Below are positions 4,947 through 50,798 of a stretch of 64,000 nt of DNA, piece after piece. Made by a program: the position numbers and the translations under genes. Numbering within the stretch: position 1 is the first letter of the stretch; each line of letters starts with the position of its first letter. The notes below the pieces were generated by a model, which searched no databases, was not told where the DNA came from, and worked only from the letters and a program-made list of their open reading frames with translations. The DNA is from Microbacterium sediminis (lineage in GTDB: Bacteria > Actinomycetota > Actinomycetes > Actinomycetales > Microbacteriaceae): NCBI RefSeq assembly GCF_004564075.1, contig NZ_CP038256.1:2604001-2668000 (forward strand). The letters run 5' to 3'.

Positions 4947-5954
4947 ATGCGCGATGAAGCCCTCCCCTTCCGACTCGAACTCGGCGCCCGCGATGGATCG
5001 CCCGCGGGGATCGCCCAGGCGGCCCGCTTCGCCGAGGAGCACGGCTACGACGGCGTGCAGGCCCCGGAGACCCAGCACGATCCCCTCATCGGATGCGCCG
5101 TGGCCGGGGCCGCGACGGAACGGGTGCGCCTGGCCACCGCGATCACGGTCGCGTTCGCCCGCAGCCCCATGACCCTCGCGATGACCGCGAACGACGTGCA
5201 GCTCGCCACCGGGGGACGCTTCGCGCTCGGCCTGGGTTCGCAGATCCAGGCGCACATCGAGAAGCGGTTCTCAATGCCCTGGTCGGCGCCCGTCCCCCGC
5301 ATGCGCGAGTTCATCGGCGCCCTGCGCGCGATCTGGGACTCCTGGGCCACCGGCGAGCCGCTGCGCGTGCGAGGCGAGAGCTACCGGCACACCCTCATGA
5401 CGCCGTTCTTCAGCCCCGGCCCCAACCCCCACGGCAACCCCGACGTGTGGCTCGCGGCGGTGGGCCCGGCGATGACGCGGCTGGCCGGCGAGGCCGCCGA
5501 CGGGTTCGTCGCGCACGCATTCACGACGCGCGAGTACCTCGTCGATGTCTCGCTGCCCACGCTCGCCGAGGGCGCGGCGCGCTCGGGCCGCGAGACCCCC
5601 GCCGTGATCGTCCAGCCGTTCGTCATCGCCGCCGACGACGAGGCGTCGCGTGCCACGCAGGAGGCGTCGGTGCGCCAGCAGATCGCGTTCTACGGATCGA
5701 CGCCCTCCTACCGCGGCGTGATGGAGCGCCACGGCTGGGAGGACGCCGCCGACCGGCTGCACGCGGCCTCCAAGCGCGGCGAGTGGAAGACGATGGCCGC
5801 CGAGATCACCGACGACATGCTCGACGCGTTCGCCGTCGCCGGCACGCCCGCGCAGGTCAGGGCCGGCCTCGCAGCGCGCTTCGGCGGCATCGCCGACACC
5901 GTGTGCGTGAACGCGCCGGCCACCCCCGAGGAGCTCGCCGGCATCGCCCGCTGA
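4947..5954 (+). CDS. LLM-class (luciferase-like) oxidoreductase, probably F420-dependent
   Basis: About 335 residues forming a luciferase-like TIM barrel. The opening strand [11 protein letters not shown] is followed by [14 protein letters not shown], the [21 protein letters not shown] region and [10 protein letters not shown]. The sequence resembles actinobacterial F420-dependent LLM subfamilies (the TIGR03617 type is my best guess), but LLM proteins can also use FMN, so the cofactor is inferred. The ATG at 4947 is chosen because the family's first beta strand begins just after it; upstream in-frame codons are low-complexity. It is monocistronic and faces away from rlmN. Together with fgd and fbiC nearby it adds to the F420 theme. 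Confidence 0.85.
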
Positions 5955-17184: not shown

Positions 17185-18015
17185 TCAGGCGATGCCGACC
17201 TCCTCGGCGATCGCGGCGAGCGAGCCGATCGGATCGTCGCCGAGCGCCTGCACCGACACGTGGTCGGCGCCCGCGTCGAGGTGCGCGCGCAGGCCCGCCG
17301 CGGCGTCGGCCGGGGTCGGGTTCGCGGCGACGAGGTCGATGAGCGCGTCGCTGCCGCCGTTGTCGATCTCGGCCGGGTCCACGCCGAAGCGGACGAGCGC
17401 ACCCGTGTAGTTCGACAGGCCGAAGTAGCGCTTGAGGTAGCGGCGGGCGACCTCGCGGGCGGCGTCGCGGTCCATCCCGACGGCTACCTTGAGCTCCGGG
17501 GCGAGCAGCGCATCGCCGAGGATCGTGCGCGCGTGCGCCGTGTGGGCGGGAACGGTGAGGTACGGGTGGGCGCCGAGCGTGCGGTCGGCGGCGAGCGCGA
17601 GCGTCTTGTCGCCGAGCGCCGCCAGGAGCAGCTGATCCTTCCGCAGCCCCTCGGCCTCGAGCACGTCGAGGTACGCGCGCAACGAGGCCAGCGGCCGCAC
17701 GCGCTCCGGCGTCGCCTCGCGGTGGCCCGAGCCGATCCCCAGCACGAAGCGCCCCGGATGACGCGCCTCGATGCGGTGGAAGGACGCGGCGACCTCGGTC
17801 GCGACCTCCTTCCAGATGTTGACGATGCCGGTGGCCACGACGATCCGCTCCGTCGCGTCGAGCGCCCGCTCGACGACGGTGAGATCGCCGCTCGGCGAGC
17901 CGCCGATCCAGAGCGTGCCGTAGCCGAGGCGCTCCACCTCCGCGGCGAAGCGCTCGTCGACACCCGATTCCCAGCGCCAGGCGCCGTAGGTTCCGAAGTC
18001 CGTGATGCTCGTCAT
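17185..18015 (-). CDS. LLM-class oxidoreductase, probably F420-dependent (TIGR03620-like)
   Basis: 276 residues, a luciferase-like barrel. Features: FGTYGAWRWESGV start, RLGYGTLWIGGSPSGDL, RIVVATGIVNIW and RHPGRFVLGIGSGHRE. This short form resembles the F420-dependent TIGR03620 type described in actinobacteria; the substrate is unknown. Its ATG overlaps the stop of the upstream hydrolase gene by four bases, so the two are co-transcribed. The partner could hint at a role in branched-chain acid or fatty acid metabolism, but that is only context. Confidence 0.85.
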   Translation of the reverse strand: MTSITDFGTYGAWRWESGVDERFAAEVERLGYGTLWIGGSPSGDLTVVERALDATERIVVATGIVNIWKEVATEVAASFHRIEARHPGRFVLGIGSGHREATPERVRPLASLRAYLDVLEAEGLRKDQLLLAALGDKTLALAADRTLGAHPYLTVPAHTAHARTILGDALLAPELKVAVGMDRDAAREVARRYLKRYFGLSNYTGALVRFGVDPAEIDNGGSDALIDLVAANPTPADAAAGLRAHLDAGADHVSVQALGDDPIGSLAAIAEEVGIA

Positions 18016-19204: not shown

Positions 19205-21136
19205 ATGGCCGACGGTAAAGTGCTCGAGTTCAACGGGGTGACGAAGATCTTCGGTGACGTCGCCGCCGTCTCAGACCTCAGCGCACGCATCGAGCCGGGC
19301 TCGGTGACGGCTTTCCTCGGGCCGAACGGTGCCGGCAAGACCACGACGCTGCGCATCCTGCTGGGGCAGCTGAAGCCCACCAGCGGCCAGGCCACGATCG
19401 GCGGCGTGCCGTTCGCGAAGATCGCCTCGCCGGCCCGCGTGGTCGGCGCCGTCGGCGAGAACGGCGCGTCGTTCAAGCCGCGCCGCACCGCGGTCAAGCA
19501 CCTGACGTCGGTGGCCCGCCACAACGGCATCGCCACCTCGCGCGTGCGCGAAGTGCTCGACCTGGTCGGCCTGGCCGACGTGGCCGACATGCGCATCGGC
19601 GGCTACTCGCTCGGCATGCGCCAGCGCCTCAGCGTGGCGCAGGCTCTGCTCGGCGACCCGGGCGTGCTCGTGTTCGACGAGCCGGCGAACGGGCTCGACC
19701 CCGAGGGCATCCGCTGGATGCGCCTGCTCATGCGCAGCCTGGCCGACGAGGGCCGCACGGTGCTGATGTCGTCGCACCTGCTGCCCGAGGTCGAGCAGAT
19801 CGCCGACAAGATCCTCATCATGTCGAACGGCAATCTCGTCTTCGACGGCGGGATCGAGGTGCTCGCCGACGTGCAGGGCCCGGTCGTGGCCGTGGACTCA
19901 CCCGACCGCGAGGCGCTCACGCGCCTGCTGCGCGAGAACGGCCTCGAGTTCGAGGTGCTGCGCTCGGGCGTGAACGTGCACGGCTCGTCGGCCGAGGCGA
20001 TCGGCACGCTCGCCGCCGCCTCCGGCGTGGCGCTGTCGACCCTGCATCAGCGCGGGCCGTCGCTCGAGGACGTCTTCCTCGATCTCGTCAGCGGCCGCCG
20101 CACGCAGCAGACGGCCGCGATCGATGTGTCCGCCGACGTGACCCCCGTCCCGGCCGAGCGTGCCCCCGAGCCCACGGGCGACCCGGACGCCGAGGTCGAC
20201 CTGTCGGCCGCCGCCGGTACCGGCGCGGTGGCGGGCCTGGCGGGTGCCGCCGTCGTGGCGGCCGCCGCCGACGCGACCGACGACATCGAGCCGCTTCCCG
20301 GCGCCGACGCCGCGAGCGTCGTGAACTACCCCGCCGCGGCCGACGCGGAGGACGAGGACGGCGAGGCCGAGGACGAGGCCGACGGCGAGGCCGAGGACGA
20401 GGCCGACGGCGAGGAGCGCGCGGCCGACGAGGAGCAGGCGACCGAGGCCGAGGCCGAGCTGCCCGCCGGCTACAGCTTCGCCGACGCGCTCGCGGAGGCC
20501 GAGGCCGCGGAGCCCGCCGCCGAGCCCGCCGCCGAGGAGAATCCCACCGAGGAGACTCCCACCGAGGAGACTCCCACCGAGGAGACTCCCGCCGAGGAGA
20601 CCCCGGCCGAGGCTCCCGCCGAGCCCATCGCCGAGCAGCCCGCGGCCGAGCGGGCCTCGGACGACGATCTCGGGGCGAGCCCGTGGGCCGTCGGGCCGAG
20701 CTTCGCCGATCGGCTGGGCGGCGCCGCCGAGGCCCCGGCCGGCGACGAGCCGTTCGAGGCCGAGGCCGTGCCGAGCCACCTGCTCGAGACGCAGGCGATG
20801 GACCTGATCGACGCCGAGCCCGCCGCCGAGGCCGCCCGCGACGACGCCGCGGAGCCCGAGGGCGAGCACGCGCGGCCCGAGGGCGAGGACGCCCGCCCCG
20901 AGGGCGACGCCCGCGACGAGGCCATCAGCACGGCGCCGGAGGGCGAGGAGCCCGAGCCGACGACGCAGGAGATCGCGTTCACGTCGTTCGTGGAGTCATT
21001 CGAGGGCGAGCCGGATCACACCGGCGAGGTCGAGGTCATCGAGGGCGAGATCGTCGAGGAGCAGGACGCGCCGCACGACGCCCCGGCCGAGGAGGGCGCG
21101 GCGCCCTCCGGCGACGACGAGCGCCGCGACTACTGA
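19205..21136 (+). CDS. ABC-2-type transporter ATPase with about 340-residue acidic low-complexity tail
   Basis: 643 residues. The first 300 form a drug/ABC-2-type ATPase: GPNGAGKTT (about residue 39), the signature YSLGMRQRLSVAQAL, VLVFDEPANGLDPEG, and a C-terminal LEDVFLDLVSGRR. The rest is Glu/Ala/Pro-rich and probably disordered, with a 24-bp repeat (EDEADGEA units near 20350-20415) and four 15-bp repeats coding for EETPT-like units (20540-20600). No permease gene is adjacent, so the membrane partner is elsewhere or absent. The ATG at 19205 has a strong GAGGGGGG ribosome site; the upstream in-frame ATG at 19175 lacks one. Confidence 0.88.
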   Translation: MADGKVLEFNGVTKIFGDVAAVSDLSARIEPGSVTAFLGPNGAGKTTTLRILLGQLKPTSGQATIGGVPFAKIASPARVVGAVGENGASFKPRRTAVKHLTSVARHNGIATSRVREVLDLVGLADVADMRIGGYSLGMRQRLSVAQALLGDPGVLVFDEPANGLDPEGIRWMRLLMRSLADEGRTVLMSSHLLPEVEQIADKILIMSNGNLVFDGGIEVLADVQGPVVAVDSPDREALTRLLRENGLEFEVLRSGVNVHGSSAEAIGTLAAASGVALSTLHQRGPSLEDVFLDLVSGRRTQQTAAIDVSADVTPVPAERAPEPTGDPDAEVDLSAAAGTGAVAGLAGAAVVAAAADATDDIEPLPGADAASVVNYPAAADAEDEDGEAEDEADGEAEDEADGEERAADEEQATEAEAELPAGYSFADALAEAEAAEPAAEPAAEENPTEETPTEETPTEETPAEETPAEAPAEPIAEQPAAERASDDDLGASPWAVGPSFADRLGGAAEAPAGDEPFEAEAVPSHLLETQAMDLIDAEPAAEAARDDAAEPEGEHARPEGEDARPEGDARDEAISTAPEGEEPEPTTQEIAFTSFVESFEGEPDHTGEVEVIEGEIVEEQDAPHDAPAEEGAAPSGDDERRDY

Positions 21137-21519
21137 CCCGCGGCGCCGGCGAGGTCGTCGGGCACCTCATCGAGGCGCAGCGCCTTCGCGAGGGCGACCC
21201 CGTGCCGCGTCGTGATGATGACGCGCGAGTACTCCTCGCCGTCCTCCAGCTCGATCACGACGCCGTCGCGCTTGCGCTCCCGCACCGCCACGAAGTCCTT
21301 GCCCGTCGAGGCGCGCCACGTGCCGATCGCGACGATCCCCGGCAGGAACGTGCCGGGGGCCCGCACGCCGCGGATCCACGTCCACGGGTCGTCGGTCAGC
21401 TGCACGCGGCGGATCGCCGACCGCTCGATCGTCAGCCCGTGCTTGCGGAGGGCGAGCGCTCGCTCGATCGGAGACAGCACGATCTCGAGCTGAGTCTGAT
21501 CAAGGAGCAGCGTGACCAT
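21130..21519 (-). CDS. Conserved-looking hypothetical protein, 129 aa
   Basis: No family recognised with confidence. The sequence alternates short beta-type strands: LDQTQLEIVLSPIERALAL, TIERSAIRRVQLTDDPW and KDFVAVRERKRDGVVIELED. This pattern is like a small PH-like or beta-barrel domain predicted to sit in the cytoplasm. No signal peptide or membrane segment. Its 3' end overlaps the end of the ABC ATPase gene by seven bases, tail to tail. The codon pattern is typical of the neighbourhood, so the gene is probably real. Confidence 0.7.
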   Translation of the reverse strand: MVTLLLDQTQLEIVLSPIERALALRKHGLTIERSAIRRVQLTDDPWTWIRGVRAPGTFLPGIVAIGTWRASTGKDFVAVRERKRDGVVIELEDGEEYSRVIITTRHGVALAKALRLDEVPDDLAGAAGQ

Positions 21520-21622: not shown

Positions 21623-24103
21623 GTGACCCTGATCGATCCGGTTCCCGCCGTCGCGCCGGCGCTGGAGCGCGCCGCCCGGGGCGAGCGACTCGACGTCGAC
21701 GACGCGCTCGCGCTGCTGTCGACCGAGGGCGCGGAGGCCGCGCGCGTGCGCGAGCTGGCCGCCCGCATGCGCGACGAGGGACTCGCGGCCGCCGGCCGTC
21801 CCGGCGTCATCACGTACTCGCGCAAGGTGTTCATCCCGCTCACCACGCTGTGCCGGGATCGCTGCCACTACTGCGTGTTCGTCGACACCCCGGGCCAGCT
21901 GCTCAAGAAGCACAAGCCCACGTACATGTCGGAGGAGCAGGTGCTCGCCGTCGCGCGCCGCGGCGCCGCGATGGGCTGCAAGGAGGCGCTGCTCACCCTC
22001 GGCGACCGCCCCGAGGACCGCTGGCCGGAGGCGCGGGCGTGGCTCGACGAGCACGGCTACGCGTCGACGCTCGAGTACGTCGGTGCCATGGCCCGCCTCA
22101 TCACGGCCGAGACGGGCCTGCTCGCGCACCTGAACCCCGGCGTCATGTCGCCGGCCGAGCTCGAGATGCTCCGGCCCACCGCCCCGTCGATGGGCGTCAT
22201 GCTCGAGACCACCTCGCGCCGCGTGTTCGAGGAGCCGGGCCAGGTGCACTACGGATCGCCCGACAAGGATCCCGCGGTGCGCCTGAAGCTCCTCGCCAAC
22301 GCCGGCGAGGCGAGGATCCCGTTCACGACCGGCATCCTCATCGGGATCGGCGAGACCCTCCGCGATCGCGCGGAGTCGATGATCGCCCTGCGCGATGCCG
22401 CCGAGCGCGGCGGGCATATCCAGGAGATCATCGTCCAGAACTTCCGCGCCAAGCCCCGCACGGCCGCCGCCGGCGCCCCGGATGCGTCGCTGCGCGAGTA
22501 CGTGGCCGCCGTGGCCGTGACGCGCCTCGTGATGGGGCCGCGGATGCGCGTGCAGGTGCCGCCCAACCTGTCGGATCCGACGGAGTTCGGCCTGCTCGTC
22601 GAGGCGGGCATCGACGACTGGGGTGGCGTCTCGCCGCTCACGGCCGATCACGTCAATCCCGAGCGCCCGTGGCCGCACCTCGACGACCTCGCCGCGGCGA
22701 CGGCGGCGCTCGGCTTCACGCTGCGCGAGCGCCTCACGGCACATCCGGAGTACGTACGCGATCCGGAATGGATCGATCCCGCGCTGCGCCCGGCGGTCCT
22801 CGCCCTCGCCGGTGCGGACGGTCTGGCGGTGGAGGGGCTGCGCCCCCAGGGCTCGTCGACCGACGCGAGTGACGCGAACGCAGCCGAGACGGGTCGAGAG
22901 GAGGCGCGCCGAGGTCACGACGCCGCGCCGGTCATCACCTCCGGCTCCACCGGCCTGATCGCCGCGGTGATCGATCGCGCCGCGCAGGATCCGTCGTCGC
23001 TCGACGACGCCGAGTGGGAGCGGCTGCTGCTCGCGACGGGCGACGACCTCGAGGCGCTCGTCCACACGGCCGACGACGTGCGCCGCTACACCGTCGGCGA
23101 GGCCATCAGCATCGTGGCCAACCGCAACGTCTCCTCGTCGGCGTTCCGCTCGGCGGGCGGCGGCGCGGCGACCGTGCGCGCCGCGGGCCTGCAGCAGGAC
23201 GGCGAGGCGTACGACCTCGCGCAGCTGGCCGACGCCGTGCGCGACGCGTGGGACCTCGGCCTGAGCGAGCTGTGCGTGCAGGGCCCGATCGATCCCGCCG
23301 AGTCGCCCGAGGCCTACCTCGACATCGCCCGCGCGGTGAAGCATGCCGCGCCCGGCATGCACCTGCACGCGTACCGCCCGCAGGACGTCGTGGACCTCGC
23401 CGACCGCTCCGGTCTCGGCCTGGCCGGGGCGCTCACCGCGCTGCGCGAGGCGGGCGTCGACTCCGTGCCGGGCACGGGGATCAAGCTCGCGAGCGAGCGG
23501 GTCCGGGGCCTCCTCGCGCCCGGCGACCTGGAGATCGATCGCTGGATCGAGGCGATCACGGCCGCGCACGAGGCGGGCTTCTCGTCGACGTCGGTGATGT
23601 TCTACGGGCACGTCGAGACGGCGGGCGAGCGGATCGCGCACCTGCGCACGCTGCTGGGCATCCAGGCGCGCACGGGTGGCTTCGCGGAGTTCGTGCCCAT
23701 CCCGCTGCCCGGCCCGGCCGGCGGCGTCGGCCTGCTGGCCGATCGCTCACCCGTCGACGAGCACCGCGCGATGGTCGCGGTCTCGCGCCTCATGCTCGGC
23801 GAGACGATCCGCCACATCCAGATCCCGTGGACGCGCCACGATCGCGCCACGACGGCCGAGCTGCTGCGCAGCGGCGGCGACGACCTGGGCGGCACGCTGC
23901 TCGACGGCCGCGTGCTGCCGCGCGCGGGCATCGAGGCCGGGCAGGAGCTGCCGCTGGCCGAGGCCCGCCGCCTCGCGCAGCGCCTGTTCCGCCCGCTGCG
24001 CCTGCGCACCACGACGTACGGCGAACCCACGGCCGAGCGCAAGGCCGCCGCGGAGGCCGGTGCGGCGGGCTCGGCGGCCGCGCGAGGCGGGTCGGCGCCG
24101 TGA
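21623..24103 (+). CDS. fbiC: FbiC-type F0 synthase (CofG-CofH fusion) with cysteine-less CofH half
   Basis: 826 residues. FbiC makes F0, the deazaflavin core of F420, from tyrosine and a flavin precursor using two radical-SAM domains. The CofG half is intact: CRDRCHYC gives C77, C81, C84, and NLSDPTEFG and DDWGGVSPLT follow. The CofH half (about 435-826) keeps family sequence (NRN, DAWDLGLSELCVQGPIDP, MFYGHVETAGERIAHL, GGDDLGGTLLDG), but the CxxxCxxC motif is absent: R509, G513 and A516 stand in its place. The linker (about 410-432) is derived from a dispersed repeat. GTG start at 21623. The stop overlaps the next gene. The CofH half should be unable to bind an iron-sulphur cluster. Confidence 0.88.
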   Translation: MTLIDPVPAVAPALERAARGERLDVDDALALLSTEGAEAARVRELAARMRDEGLAAAGRPGVITYSRKVFIPLTTLCRDRCHYCVFVDTPGQLLKKHKPTYMSEEQVLAVARRGAAMGCKEALLTLGDRPEDRWPEARAWLDEHGYASTLEYVGAMARLITAETGLLAHLNPGVMSPAELEMLRPTAPSMGVMLETTSRRVFEEPGQVHYGSPDKDPAVRLKLLANAGEARIPFTTGILIGIGETLRDRAESMIALRDAAERGGHIQEIIVQNFRAKPRTAAAGAPDASLREYVAAVAVTRLVMGPRMRVQVPPNLSDPTEFGLLVEAGIDDWGGVSPLTADHVNPERPWPHLDDLAAATAALGFTLRERLTAHPEYVRDPEWIDPALRPAVLALAGADGLAVEGLRPQGSSTDASDANAAETGREEARRGHDAAPVITSGSTGLIAAVIDRAAQDPSSLDDAEWERLLLATGDDLEALVHTADDVRRYTVGEAISIVANRNVSSSAFRSAGGGAATVRAAGLQQDGEAYDLAQLADAVRDAWDLGLSELCVQGPIDPAESPEAYLDIARAVKHAAPGMHLHAYRPQDVVDLADRSGLGLAGALTALREAGVDSVPGTGIKLASERVRGLLAPGDLEIDRWIEAITAAHEAGFSSTSVMFYGHVETAGERIAHLRTLLGIQARTGGFAEFVPIPLPGPAGGVGLLADRSPVDEHRAMVAVSRLMLGETIRHIQIPWTRHDRATTAELLRSGGDDLGGTLLDGRVLPRAGIEAGQELPLAEARRLAQRLFRPLRLRTTTYGEPTAERKAAAEAGAAGSAAARGGSAP
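22848..22901 (+). repeat. In-frame copy of the dispersed repeat inside fbiC
   Basis: Begins GGGCTCGTCGACCGA and ends GAGACGGGTCGAG, the two best conserved ends of the intergenic repeat, with a diverged middle. It encodes the CofG-CofH linker (GSSTDASDANAAETGREE). The reading frame is kept. Confidence 0.7.
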
Positions 24104-25545
24104 CGACGGTCATCGTCGGCGCCGGTTTCGCCGGGATCGCCGCCGCGATCGCGCTGGCCCGGCGCGGGATCGACGACGTCGTGATCCTCGAGCGCGCCGA
24201 CGCCGTCGGCGGCACGTGGCGCGACAACACGTATCCCGGCGTCGCGTGCGATGTGCCGTCGCACCTGTACGGCCTGGAGACGCACCCGTGGCCGGCGTGG
24301 TCGCGCGCCTTCGCCCCCGGCGACGAGATCCGCGCGTATCTCGAGCACGTCGTGCGGACCGAGGGGCTGGAGGATCGGCTCCGCCTGGGCACCGCGCTCA
24401 CCGGCGCGCGCTGGGACGGCGGCGCGTGGCGCGTGCGCACCTCGGCCGACGAGGAGCTGGTCGCCGACCACCTGATCCTCGCGTGCGGCCGGCTCACCGA
24501 TCCGAAGATCCCGTCGATCCCGGGCCTGGAGTCATTCCCCGGCCCCCTGTTCCACTCGGCGCGCTGGCGCCACGACGTCCCCGTCGCCGGGCGGCGGGTC
24601 GCCGTCGCCGGCACGGGCGCGAGCGCCGTGCAACTCGTGCCCGAGCTCGTGCGCCGCGGCGCCGAGGTCGTGCTGCTGCAGCGCACGCCCGCGTGGATCG
24701 TGCCGCGCGGCGATCGCCCGCACACCGAGGCCGAGATCGCGCACTGGCGCGACGATCCCGCGGCGCTGCGGGCCCTGCGCGACGAGCTCTACACCGAGGG
24801 CGAGGCGCGCTTCGCGTCGCGCTCGGGCGACCCGATCGCCGCCGCCGAGGCGCGCGCCCTCGCGCAGGCCCACCTCGAGGCGCAGGTGCCCGATCCGCGG
24901 CTGCGTGCCGCCCTCACGCCCGACTACGCGTTCGGCTGCCGGCGGGTGCTGCTGAGCGACGACTTCTACCCCGCCATCGCGTCCGGCGCGGCGCGGCTCG
25001 TGCCGAGCGCCCTCGCGGAGGTCGATGGCGACACGCTCGTAGCCGCCGACGGCACGCGGCACGAGGCGGATGTGCTCGTGCTCGCCACCGGGTTCGAGGC
25101 GGCGCGCCAGCCGTACGCGCGGCTGGTGACCGGCGAGCACGGCACCACGCTCGACGCGCACTGGTCGGGCGGCTACACGGCGGCCGCGTCGACGCTCGTG
25201 CCCGGGTTCCCGAACCTCTTCGTGCTCGGCGGCCCCAACGCGGCGCTGGGACACAACTCCGCCGTGCTCATCCTCGAGGCCCAGGCGGCGTTCGCGGCCG
25301 AGCTCGTCGCCGCCGGCCGCCCGATCCGCGTCACGCCGGAGCAGGAGGCCCGCTCCACCGCCGAGGTCGATGCGCTCGCGGCCGGCACCCCGTGGCTCAC
25401 CGGCGGCTGCCACAGCTGGTACGTCGACGAGCGCAGCGGCCGCCTCACGCTGCTCTGGCCCGGCACGGTCGCCGCCTTCCGCGAGCGCCTCGATCGCCTC
25501 AAGAACGCCCTCATCCCCGTCACCGCAGACCAAGGAGCATCATGA
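24100..25545 (+). CDS. Flavin-containing monooxygenase, Baeyer-Villiger-like, within the F420 operon
   Basis: 481 residues. FAD-binding Rossmann motif GAGFAGIAAAIALARRG, the BVMO-style fingerprint FPGPLFHSARW (FxGxxxHxxxW), second nucleotide motif GTGASAVQLVPEL for NADPH, and the late LVLATGFEAARQ motif. Such enzymes insert oxygen into ketones or hydroxylate nitrogen or sulphur substrates using FAD and NADPH. GTG start overlaps the fbiC stop and its own stop overlaps the fgd start, so it is translationally coupled inside the F420 operon. It has no known role in F420 synthesis; substrate unknown. Confidence 0.87.
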   Translation: MTTVIVGAGFAGIAAAIALARRGIDDVVILERADAVGGTWRDNTYPGVACDVPSHLYGLETHPWPAWSRAFAPGDEIRAYLEHVVRTEGLEDRLRLGTALTGARWDGGAWRVRTSADEELVADHLILACGRLTDPKIPSIPGLESFPGPLFHSARWRHDVPVAGRRVAVAGTGASAVQLVPELVRRGAEVVLLQRTPAWIVPRGDRPHTEAEIAHWRDDPAALRALRDELYTEGEARFASRSGDPIAAAEARALAQAHLEAQVPDPRLRAALTPDYAFGCRRVLLSDDFYPAIASGAARLVPSALAEVDGDTLVAADGTRHEADVLVLATGFEAARQPYARLVTGEHGTTLDAHWSGGYTAAASTLVPGFPNLFVLGGPNAALGHNSAVLILEAQAAFAAELVAAGRPIRVTPEQEARSTAEVDALAAGTPWLTGGCHSWYVDERSGRLTLLWPGTVAAFRERLDRLKNALIPVTADQGAS

Positions 25546-26555
25546 CCGTTCCCCTCCGCTTCGGCTACAAGGCCTCCTCCGAGCAGTTCGGGCCGCGCGA
25601 GCTGCTCGACTACGCGGTGCTCGCCGAGGAAGTCGGCTTCGACTCGGTCTTCCTCAGCGACCACCTCCAGCCGTGGATGCACGAGGGCGGGCACGCGCCC
25701 GCGACGCTGCCGTGGCTCGGATCGGTCGGCGAGCGCACGTCGCGCGTGCTGCTGGGTACGTCGGTGCTCACGCCAACGTTCCGCTACCACCCGGGCGTCA
25801 TCGCGCAGGCCTTCGGCACGCTCGGCGCCATGTACCCCGGTCGCATGATCCTCGGCGTCGGCACGGGCGAGGCCCTCAACGAGGTCACGCTCGGCCTGCA
25901 GTGGCCCGAGCCGCCCGAGCGCTTCCAGCGCATGAAGGAGTCGATCATCCTCATGCGCAAGCTGTGGGAGGAGGATCGCGTCACCTACGAGGGCGACTAC
26001 TACGCGGTCCACAACGCCACCATCTACGACAAGCCGGCCCAGCCGATCCCCGTGTACATCGGCGCCTCCGGCCCGGCCGCCACGCGCCTGGCGGGCCGCA
26101 TCGGCGACGGCTGGATCACGACGAGCGGCAAGGACCCGGCGCTCTACAGCGACAAGCTCATCCCCGCGTTCGAGGAGGGCCTCGACAAGGGCGGGCGCAG
26201 CCGCGACGACGTCGACACGATGATCGAGGTCAAGGTCTCATTCCGCCACGATCGCGAGAAGGCCCTCGAGAACACGCGCTTCTGGGCGCCGCTCGCCCTC
26301 ACCCCGGATGAGAAGACCGGCGTGCACGACCCGATGGAGATGCAGCGCCTCGCCGAGGAGCTTCCGATCGAGCGCGCCGCCTCGCGCTTCATCGTGAGCG
26401 ACGACGTCGAGGAGCACATCGCGGCGATCGAGCAGTACCTGTCGCTCGGCTTCCGTCACCTCGTCTTCCACGACCCCGGCCACGACCAGGAGGCCTTCCT
26501 GCGCCTGTACGGCGAGGAGGTGCTGCCGCGCCTGCGCGAGCGGCACGGGGCGTGA
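25542..26555 (+). CDS. fgd: F420-dependent glucose-6-phosphate dehydrogenase
   Basis: 337 residues, matching the usual 336 of mycobacterial Fgd1. It oxidises glucose-6-phosphate to 6-phosphogluconolactone while reducing F420, and is the main source of F420H2 in actinobacteria that have it. Seen: RFGYKASSEQFGPRELLDYA, SVFLSDHLQPWMHEGGHAP, TSVLTPTFRYHP, GRMILGVGTGEALNE and SGPAATRLAGRIGDGWITTS, all close to the family. Ribosome site CAAGGAG lies just before the ATG at 25542, which overlaps the upstream stop by four bases. The downstream cofC start overlaps its stop. Confidence 0.95.
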   Translation: MTVPLRFGYKASSEQFGPRELLDYAVLAEEVGFDSVFLSDHLQPWMHEGGHAPATLPWLGSVGERTSRVLLGTSVLTPTFRYHPGVIAQAFGTLGAMYPGRMILGVGTGEALNEVTLGLQWPEPPERFQRMKESIILMRKLWEEDRVTYEGDYYAVHNATIYDKPAQPIPVYIGASGPAATRLAGRIGDGWITTSGKDPALYSDKLIPAFEEGLDKGGRSRDDVDTMIEVKVSFRHDREKALENTRFWAPLALTPDEKTGVHDPMEMQRLAEELPIERAASRFIVSDDVEEHIAAIEQYLSLGFRHLVFHDPGHDQEAFLRLYGEEVLPRLRERHGA

Positions 26556-27316
26556 GCGGCCGCGGTCGCCGAGCGGAGGCCGCGCAGCGGCCGGAGCCGA
26601 GGTCCTGGAGCGTCGTCATCCCGGTCAAGCCGGCGGCGATCGGCAAATCCCGCCTCGCGGTGCCGGGCGTCGATCGCGAGGCCCTCGCCCGCGCGATCGC
26701 CCTCGACACGATCGCCGCCGCCTCGCGCGCGCGCCTCGTGGCCGAGGTCGTGGTGGTGACCAACGACGCCGACGTGCGGGCGGCGATCGCCCGCGCCGGT
26801 GGTTTCGACTCCGCGCTTCGCGCTCCGCTCAACCCGTCTCCATTCCGCGCTTCGCGCTCCCGTCGACGAGCCGTGGGGGATCAGGCGTCGTCGAGCGAGC
26901 ACGGCGAGCCGCGACAGGCGACGGCCGCGACGGTCCGGGCGGTGGCCGACCCGGGGACGGGGCTCAATGCCGCGATCGCGGCGGGGCTCGCGGCCGCCAC
27001 CGGCCCCGCCCGCGCGGCGCTGCTCGGCGACCTGCCGGCGCTGCGGCCCGGCGACCTCGACGACGCCCTGCGGCGGGCGACGGGCCCCGCGGCGGTGGCC
27101 GACGCGGACGGCACCGGCACGACCCTGTTCGCGCACGCCGAGGCCGATCTGCTGGCGTTCGGCGCCGACTCGTACGCGCGCCACCTCGCGGCCGGGGCCG
27201 TGGCGCTCGACGTGGACCCCGCCAGCACCCTGCGGCACGACGTCGACACGGCCGCGCAGCTCGACGCCGCCCGCGCCCTCGGCCTGGGCCCTCGCACGGC
27301 GGCGCTGCTGCCGTAG
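26552..27316 (+). CDS. cofC: 2-phospholactate/phosphoenolpyruvate guanylyltransferase CofC/FbiD with repeat-derived insert
   Basis: 254 residues. CofC/FbiD activates phosphoenolpyruvate (or 2-phospholactate) with GTP for transfer to F0 by FbiA. Motifs: IPVKPAAIGKSRLA (nucleotide binding), AEVVVVTNDADV, ADPGTGLNAAI, ALLGDLPALRPGDL, ADADGTGTTLF and LRHDVDTAAQLDAAR. An extra stretch of about 40 residues (86-126) between the NDADV strand and the PDPG-type motif has no family counterpart and is encoded by a copy of the dispersed repeat. Activity is plausible if the loop tolerates it. GTG start overlaps fgd; last gene of the operon. Confidence 0.88.
   Translation: MSGRGRRAEAAQRPEPRSWSVVIPVKPAAIGKSRLAVPGVDREALARAIALDTIAAASRARLVAEVVVVTNDADVRAAIARAGGFDSALRAPLNPSPFRASRSRRRAVGDQASSSEHGEPRQATAATVRAVADPGTGLNAAIAAGLAAATGPARAALLGDLPALRPGDLDDALRRATGPAAVADADGTGTTLFAHAEADLLAFGADSYARHLAAGAVALDVDPASTLRHDVDTAAQLDAARALGLGPRTAALLP
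26808..26895 (-). repeat. In-frame copy of the dispersed repeat inside cofC
   Basis: Reverse-orientation copy: TTTCGACTCCGCGCTTCGCG, then CTCCGCTCAACCCGTCTCC, a second arm CCGCGCTTCGCGCTCCCGTC and the end GACGAGCCGTGGGG. It matches the intergenic copies at 13209-13275 and 63272-63342. The frame is open across it. Confidence 0.75.
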
Positions 27317-50009: not shown

Positions 50010-50798
50010 ATGGCCCTTCCGACGATGGCGGTCACGTTCCGCCCGCAGCTGCCGCCCGAGCGCCTCCACGATGTCGTCACCGCGGCCGATCAGGCGGGGA
50101 TCGACGAGCTCTGGCTGTGGGAGGACTGCTTCCTCGAGGGCGGCATCGCCACCGCCTCGGCCGCGCTCGCTCGATCGGAGCGCGTGCGGATCGGACTCGG
50201 GCTGCTCCCCGTGCCGCTGCGCAACCCGGCGCTCGCGGCGATGGAGCTCGCCACGCTCGAGCGCCTCGCGCCCGGCCGCGTCATCGCGGGCTTCGGGCAC
50301 GGCGTGCTCGACTGGATGGGCCAGGTCGGCGCGCGCGTCGCCTCGCCGCTGACCCTGCTACGCGAGTATGTGACCGCCGTGCGATCGCTGCTGGAGGGCG
50401 GCACGGTGGACGCGGCCGGACGCTACGTGTCGCTGCGCGATGTCGCGCTCGACTGGCCGCCGGCGGCCGCGCCGCAGCTGGTGATCGGCGCCACCGGCCC
50501 CAAGACGCTGCGCCTGGCCGGCGAGCTGGGCGACGGCGTGGTGCTCTCGGGCGGCACCTCGCCCGACGACGTGCGCGCCGCGCGCGCGATCATCGACGAG
50601 GGCTACGCCGCCTCCGGACGCGACGGCCGCTCGCGCGTCACGGTGTACGTGCCGGTGGACACCACCCTGCCGCGTCTGGCCGATCACCTGCGCGAACGCG
50701 CCGCCGCGTACGGCGACGCCGGAGCGGACGCCGTCTCGTTCGAGGCGCCCGCGGACTCCCCCGATCCGAGGCCGATCATCGACGCGCTGGCCGGCTGA
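50010..50798 (+). CDS. LLM-class oxidoreductase, probably F420-dependent
   Basis: 262 residues, short luciferase-like barrel: MAVTFRPQLPPERLHDVVTA, DELWLWEDCFLEGGI, RVRIGLGLLPVPLRNPALAA, GRVIAGFGHGVLDWMGQVG, LVIGATGPKTLRLAGELGDG and VVLSGGTSP. The LWEDCFLEGG style is typical of actinobacterial F420-linked LLM enzymes, though FMN use cannot be excluded. No signal peptide. It converges with the YdeI-like gene. Substrate unknown. Confidence 0.86.
   Translation: MALPTMAVTFRPQLPPERLHDVVTAADQAGIDELWLWEDCFLEGGIATASAALARSERVRIGLGLLPVPLRNPALAAMELATLERLAPGRVIAGFGHGVLDWMGQVGARVASPLTLLREYVTAVRSLLEGGTVDAAGRYVSLRDVALDWPPAAAPQLVIGATGPKTLRLAGELGDGVVLSGGTSPDDVRAARAIIDEGYAASGRDGRSRVTVYVPVDTTLPRLADHLRERAAAYGDAGADAVSFEAPADSPDPRPIIDALAG

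Follow-up and report, generated by a model that had tools for sequence, protein, structure and literature searches.

A 64,000-nucleotide stretch of Microbacterium sediminis (contig NZ_CP038256.1, positions 2,604,001 to 2,668,000; hereafter “the window”) carries a variant of fbiC, the fused CofG–CofH gene of F0 synthesis, in which the CofG half keeps its radical S-adenosylmethionine (SAM) cysteine triad and the CofH half has lost all of its radical-SAM cysteines. We refer to this gene as fbiC* and to its cysteine-free (Cys-free) CofH half as CofH*. Its downstream partner encodes a type-I Baeyer–Villiger monooxygenase (BVMO), a gene absent from the remarks of an earlier sequence-only reading of this DNA. 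We propose, with a probability of roughly 0.6, that CofH* acts jointly with the BVMO in place of the radical-SAM reaction that opens F0 synthesis. The gene pattern behind this proposal is established, i.e., cysteine loss, a single origin, constraint, a constant BVMO neighbour, and downstream genes of the F420 pathway.

All cysteines of the fbiC* protein are C77, C81, C84, C119, and C551. The first three form the CofG cluster motif, and the CofG model TIGR03550 scored 458.1 bits (cut-off 213.35; NCBIfam models and their curated cut-offs were used for CofG, CofH, and CofGH alike), in agreement with the sequence-only reading, which had described this centre as intact. From residue ~460 onward, C551 is the single cysteine and there is no triad, so that the reported absence of the three CofH cysteines also holds. 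N500-R501-N502 begins at position 23120, and VSSSAFRSAGGGAATVRAAGLQQDGEAYDL comes next. When aligned with 63 canonical FbiC sequences, the first CofH motif cysteine falls on R509, while the columns of the second and third are gaps in 65 and 71, respectively, of 72 Cys-free sequences (identical rows and the window locus, L003, removed beforehand). Among the three replaced positions named earlier, R509 is therefore an aligned residue; for G513 and A516 the assignment follows from spacing only, because nearly all Cys-free rows are gapped there. Neither CxxxCxxC nor a looser cysteine triad occurs in the CofH half of any of these 72 distinct Cys-free proteins.

Model scores tell the same two forms apart. 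With the CofH model TIGR03551 (cut-off 374.1), the CofH half alone reached 261.8 bits and the whole protein 292.9 bits over two stretches; the CofGH model NF006687 gave 939.3 bits for the whole protein, below its curated cut-off of 1018. As a control, canonical actinobacterial CofH halves (n = 5) scored 521.6–532.5 bits with TIGR03551 and other Cys-free halves (n = 4) 265.0–319.1 bits, i.e., the cut-off parted the two forms in 9/9 cases. Since it lacks the cluster motif and scores below the curated cut-off, CofH* is outside the radical-SAM CofH family.

The change is shared by close relatives, with CofH* present in 86 of the 168 relative loci read. These loci are not independent, because the three sets they come from overlap and one includes the window itself, and the Cys-free share is no frequency, because loci were picked by similarity to CofH*: those read were the best ones, covering 30 of the 189 same-genus genomes with a match and 30 family-level loci. 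In the set L003–L060 (58 loci), 47 were Cys-free and 11 had cysteines, and the CofG motif was intact in 56/58, the exceptions being L036 (masked) and L039 (no CofG in the open reading frame). Of 576 confirmed stretches, the best 80 comprised 28 Cys-free and 52 loci with cysteines, all 80 with the CofG motif; Cys-free examples came from Microbacterium, Frigoribacterium sp. JB110, Diaminobutyricibacter, Salinibacterium xinjiangense, Millisia brevis, Arthrobacter sp. MYb23, and further relatives, and the closest named relative by FbiC, at 84% in its best segment, was Microbacterium sp. Marseille-Q6965. Order-level loci (30, from 63 matching genomes) split into 11 Cys-free and 19 with cysteines. 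By similarity to the CofH half, 189 of 366 same-genus genomes have a match, as do 96 of 398 at the family level (28/85 genera). A plasmid collection yielded 74 matching records, every one below 60% identity (similarity matches, motif status aside).

The partner protein is a type-I BVMO, with a predicted NADPH- and O2-dependent ketone-to-ester activity. Its best matches among solved structures included 4ap3 (steroid, 3.2e-54), 1w4x (phenylacetone, 1.5e-49), and 5m0z (cyclohexanone). Two patterns that we take to be the type-I BVMO fingerprints, [AG]GxWxxxx[FY]P[GM]xxxD and FxGxxxHxxxW, were found in 39/39 and 38/39 partner proteins, respectively; the position after the W of the latter ([PD]) is Arg in the window BVMO. 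Asp51 was conserved in 39/39 proteins and Arg282 in 38/39 (one row gapped), and these are presumably the equivalents of catalytic residues.

The association between this gene and CofH* is nearly without exception. The BVMO follows CofH* in 85 of the 86 Cys-free loci, and the remaining contig stops there: the counts were 46/47 in the first set (the last contig ends 130 bp past the match), 28/28 for named loci besides the window (directly or one gene later), and 11/11 at the order level. Conversely, no BVMO was found near any of 82 canonical loci (0/11, 0/52, and 0/19 across the three sets), in neighbourhoods of 1.5 kb for the sets of 11 and 19 and of up to 10 kb for the 52, which were scanned with a home-made gene caller that recovered FbiC in 50/52. 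At the genome scale, 186 of the 366 same-genus genomes matched both genes, 3 matched CofH* alone (G201, E 4e-4, 59% complete; G292, E 8e-4; G270, E 6e-43, 85% complete), and 5 matched the BVMO alone, with weaker matches (E 1e-61 to 2.5e-102) than the 1.9e-113 or better of the other 186. Among 80 place pairs, which are part of all pairs listed, the BVMO match begins between −42 and +206 bp relative to where the CofH* match ends, and both lie on one strand. Pairwise distances across 23 loci correlate at 0.94 between BVMO and CofH* and at 0.93 between CofG and CofH*, which indicates that the three were inherited together.

The link of CofH* to the BVMO is closer than that to CofG, because an unfused CofH* still overlaps the BVMO gene. 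Specifically, 8 of the 11 Cys-free loci at the order level have CofH* out of frame with or unfused to CofG, all with the BVMO still adjoining. In five 20-kb regions (L174–L178), CofH* and the BVMO gene share a 4-bp overlap, while CofG lies apart on the opposite strand, with CofC beside it in 4/5. This overlap with the BVMO gene and not with CofG weakens one of three options offered by the sequence-only reading, namely that the CofH half had become a structural or regulatory partner of CofG.

Further genes accompany some of these loci. In L086, L088, L091, L180, L182, and L183, CofH* and the BVMO are separated by an alpha/beta-hydrolase-like gene, which in L181 (7252–9246) forms a fusion with the BVMO; across the seven cases its nucleophile Ser is kept in 4, lost in 2 (L086, L183), and ambiguous in 1. 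In L084, L087, L088, L091, and L125, fbiC* and the BVMO adjoin a cluster that includes one dihydropyrimidinase-like and one luciferase-like gene (names given by eye); in most of these five neighbourhoods, an ABC transporter is present as well, together with other catabolic genes. Two genomes (G361 and G318) have two strong CofH* matches each, on different contigs; both copies in G361 and at least one in G318 have a neighbouring BVMO match.

Next to the cysteine loss, CofH* displays a set of fixed replacements. We compared the 72 Cys-free with the 63 canonical sequences in one alignment, in which two class switches introduce basic residues, R585 and K621 (Table 1). Further residues invariant in canonical rows have switched as D665E (72/72), E762G (72/72), A619G (70/72), and K635D (70/72), and C-x-QGG no longer has its second Gly. 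By radical-SAM fold rules as we assume them, the switched places would include the cluster loop, the GGE-like segment of strand 2, and the ribose position of strand 4. Order-level Cys-free rows (10 readable) carry R585, E665, and G762 in 10/10; position 621 is basic in 9/10, the deviating L144 being perhaps misaligned. Many residues invariant in canonical FbiC are kept, including R501, N502 (71/72), H580, H582, P586, P616-G617-T618, W641, H649, Y661-G662, H673, Q733, W736, D754, and others, consistent with the earlier view that the rest of the CofH domain is conserved. Taken together, these patterns point to a protein that may have lost the use of SAM and kept much of the substrate barrel, and whose SAM site has probably gained basic residues.

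The CofH/MqnE-type barrel fold is predicted to be retained, because a confident model was obtained and its best matches are radical-SAM enzymes. An AlphaFold2 model of residues 459–804, built from 41 aligned sequences, had a mean predicted local distance difference test score (pLDDT) of 87.3 and a predicted template modelling score of 0.87, with pLDDT <50 at residues 517–526, within the former cluster loop. In Foldseek searches against solved structures, MqnE was the best match (template modelling score 0.81–0.82), followed by HydE, biotin synthase, and other radical-SAM enzymes.

Cys-free sequences arose once and have evolved under purifying selection. In a tree of CofG halves with 133 rows (of 135, two were dropped because their CofG halves were short), a single branch split Cys-free from canonical sequences with a Shimodaira–Hasegawa-like approximate likelihood ratio test (SH-aLRT) value of 99, and a more careful tree with near-copies thinned to 62 rows gave the same split (bootstrap 100, SH-aLRT 95). 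Median ratios of non-synonymous to synonymous substitution rates (dN/dS) were 0.39 for CofH* and 0.34 for canonical CofH, compared to 0.25 and 0.33 for the Cys-free and canonical CofG halves; one CofH* pair reached 1.04. These Nei–Gojobori estimates are rough, since the sequences are GC-rich and the pairs distant. Millisia brevis (L089), from the Gordoniaceae, has both fbiC* and the BVMO; its CofG half groups on a long branch among Microbacterium rows, which makes horizontal transfer possible.

The genes expected downstream of F0 are present. Successive 4-bp overlaps join fbiC*, the BVMO gene, fgd, and a cofC homologue in one operon, and the genome encodes CofD (308 bits, cut-off 257.45) and CofE (226.4 bits, cut-off 180.65), which agrees with the F420 genes noted nearby in the earlier reading. 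A CofD match was found in 185 of the 189 same-genus genomes with a CofH* match. Elsewhere in the window lie further luciferase-like oxidoreductases at 4947–5954 (+), 17185–18015 (−), and 50010–50798 (+); the first two are above cut-off for the F420-dependent subfamilies TIGR03617 and TIGR03620. A 129-residue protein at 21130–21519 (−) had no Pfam or NCBIfam match and occurs in 13 of 29 Cys-free neighbourhoods.

Table 1 Features of the fbiC* operon, in window coordinates.
Feature	Position	Strand	Details
fbiC*: fusion of CofG (radical-SAM centre intact) with the Cys-free CofH*	21623..24103	+	GTG start, 826 aa
Intact CofG cluster motif C77-x3-C81-x2-C84	21851..21874	+	residues 77–84 as window bases
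NRN and remodelled loop in place of CofH CxxxCxxC	23120..23200	+	alignment, model
R585 class switch	23375..23377	+	Ser in 63/63 canonical, Arg in 72/72 Cys-free
K621 class switch	23483..23485	+	Glu in 63/63 canonical; Lys in 68/72, Arg in 4/72 Cys-free
Type-I Baeyer–Villiger monooxygenase (BVMO), 481 aa	24100..25545	+	GTGA start overlaps fbiC* stop
fgd, F420-dependent glucose-6-phosphate dehydrogenase	25542..26555	+	459.9 bits, cut-off 420; ATGA overlap with BVMO gene
cofC (fbiD) homologue	26552..27316	+	95.1 bits, slightly below cut-off 105; GTGA overlap with fgd

How might a cluster-free CofH and a BVMO carry out this step? In the account of canonical CofH given in a 2021 review, a hydrogen is taken from the amine of tyrosine, which fragments to give a p-hydroxybenzyl radical; this radical adds to the ribityl-diaminouracil, and oxidation follows (PMC8498797). 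By our own reasoning, the net outcome would equal that of an alkylation by a p-quinone methide. We therefore sketch, as a tentative scheme given less weight than the replacement itself, an O2-dependent and non-radical route in which F0 as the product, the role of the BVMO in the CofH step, its substrate, and the intermediates are all inferred. The BVMO would insert oxygen into a tyrosine-derived 4-hydroxybenzyl ketone, most simply 4-hydroxyphenylpyruvate, or into 4-hydroxyphenylacetaldehyde. The resulting 4-hydroxybenzyl ester could, by chemical reasoning, eliminate to the p-quinone methide, leaving oxalate or formate. Within the CofH* barrel, the quinone methide would alkylate C5 of 5-amino-6-ribitylaminouracil, yielding the adduct that CofH makes radically; CofH* would position the pyrimidine and steer the addition, and the anionic ester or the leaving group could be bound by R585 and K621. 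The radical-SAM CofG half would then close the ring to F0, CofC, CofD, and CofE would complete F420, and Fgd would reduce it. As enzymatic precedent, two reports describe phenylacetone monooxygenase converting phenylacetone to benzyl acetate (PMC3404926) and its application to substituted phenylacetones (PMC10840651). N-hydroxylation of tyrosine by the flavoenzyme partner was also considered and ranked second, since the partner bears BVMO fingerprints.

Several points weigh against a replacement of the radical step by CofH* and the BVMO. Production of F0 and F420 and the BVMO substrate are predictions from gene content; CofH* is under somewhat weaker constraint than its own CofG half (dN/dS 0.39 vs. 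0.25); and the cysteine status is known for 33 same-genus loci out of 189 matches, all 33 Cys-free. CofG also stays a radical-SAM enzyme, so that, with respect to the old route, no oxygen independence is gained. Finally, 18 of the 366 same-genus genomes have a CofD match without an FbiC match (among them G017, G059, G100–G102, G113, G210, G335, and G336), and may take up F0 or use another F0 synthase.

That last observation makes F0 uptake conceivable in the genus and feeds the strongest rival, in which CofH* is a mere scaffold, the step is carried out by an unlinked, non-homologous enzyme or bypassed by uptake, and the co-regulated BVMO has an unrelated job. We consider this unlikely, as CofH* stays beside the BVMO even when split from CofG, none of the 82 canonical loci examined has such a neighbour, and both CofG and CofH* are retained, which uptake alone would make needless. 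Slightly less probable still is a different product, i.e., that CofG, CofH*, and the BVMO make another deazaflavin or another tyrosine- or pyrimidine-derived compound, to which CofC, CofD, CofE, and Fgd have adapted. Uniform remodelling of CofH* together with a new enzyme partner would fit such a need, but Fgd, CofD, and CofE exceed F420-family cut-offs here, and CofD accompanies CofH* in almost every matching genome.

That F0 is made by another, intact CofH encoded at a separate site in the genome, a further option of the sequence-only reading, is very improbable. The genome containing the window (2.92 Mb, 99.99% complete) was searched with the CofH model, and the only full-length match was fbiC* itself, below cut-off, with a weak match to its CofG half. 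Nor was a CofH above cut-off found in any of 80 other genomes that have matches resembling CofH* (Cys region read in 30, the rest assigned CofH* by similarity), and the model does detect canonical control halves, which exceed the cut-off in 5/5. The remaining option, that the lineage makes F420 or F0 differently, is now the best supported of the three. Sequencing error or the decay of a dying gene, to which the slightly relaxed constraint on CofH* relative to its CofG half might be ascribed, is next to impossible given an identical loss in 72 distinct proteins recurring across relatives, uniform class switches, a median dN/dS of 0.39, and an operon kept across genera, and the earlier judgement that this is “not simple decay” was right.

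According to the same 2021 review, all F420 producers studied make F0 by a single universal mechanism that relies on two radical-SAM domains (PMC8498797). Here, a large aerobic actinobacterial group has one of the two domains without a cluster and with a constant oxygenase neighbour, and the case is of high interest because the “universal” mechanism becomes directly testable. If our proposal is true, there would be a second route to F0, and a radical-SAM fold would have been turned to non-radical, polar alkyl-transfer chemistry via a gained flavoenzyme partner, possibly of use for F420 production in other hosts. More generally, annotation through FbiC homology can conceal a different pathway. 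Among open-licence PubMed Central papers, our searches listed no title or abstract on a Cys-free CofH or on a BVMO in F0 synthesis, in line with the sequence-only reading, which knew of none.

Compared to known systems, fbiC* shares with FbiC/CofG+CofH (NF006687, TIGR03550, TIGR03551) the fusion, the intact CofG half, full-length CofH homology, and the barrel, and would resemble CofH in its pathway position; it differs in a CofH half without the cluster motif, a score below cut-off, fixed replacements, and the BVMO neighbour. The aminofutalosine synthase MqnE (6xi9, 6xig) is the best structural and the sole sequence match of CofH* among solved structures, but has Glu where CofH* has K621 and, as we take it, carries a radical-SAM cluster. 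The partner shares both fingerprints and the conserved aligned Asp51 and Arg282 with type-I BVMOs (4ap3, 5m0z, 1w4x), but is shorter (481 vs. about 540 aa) and sits beside CofH*.

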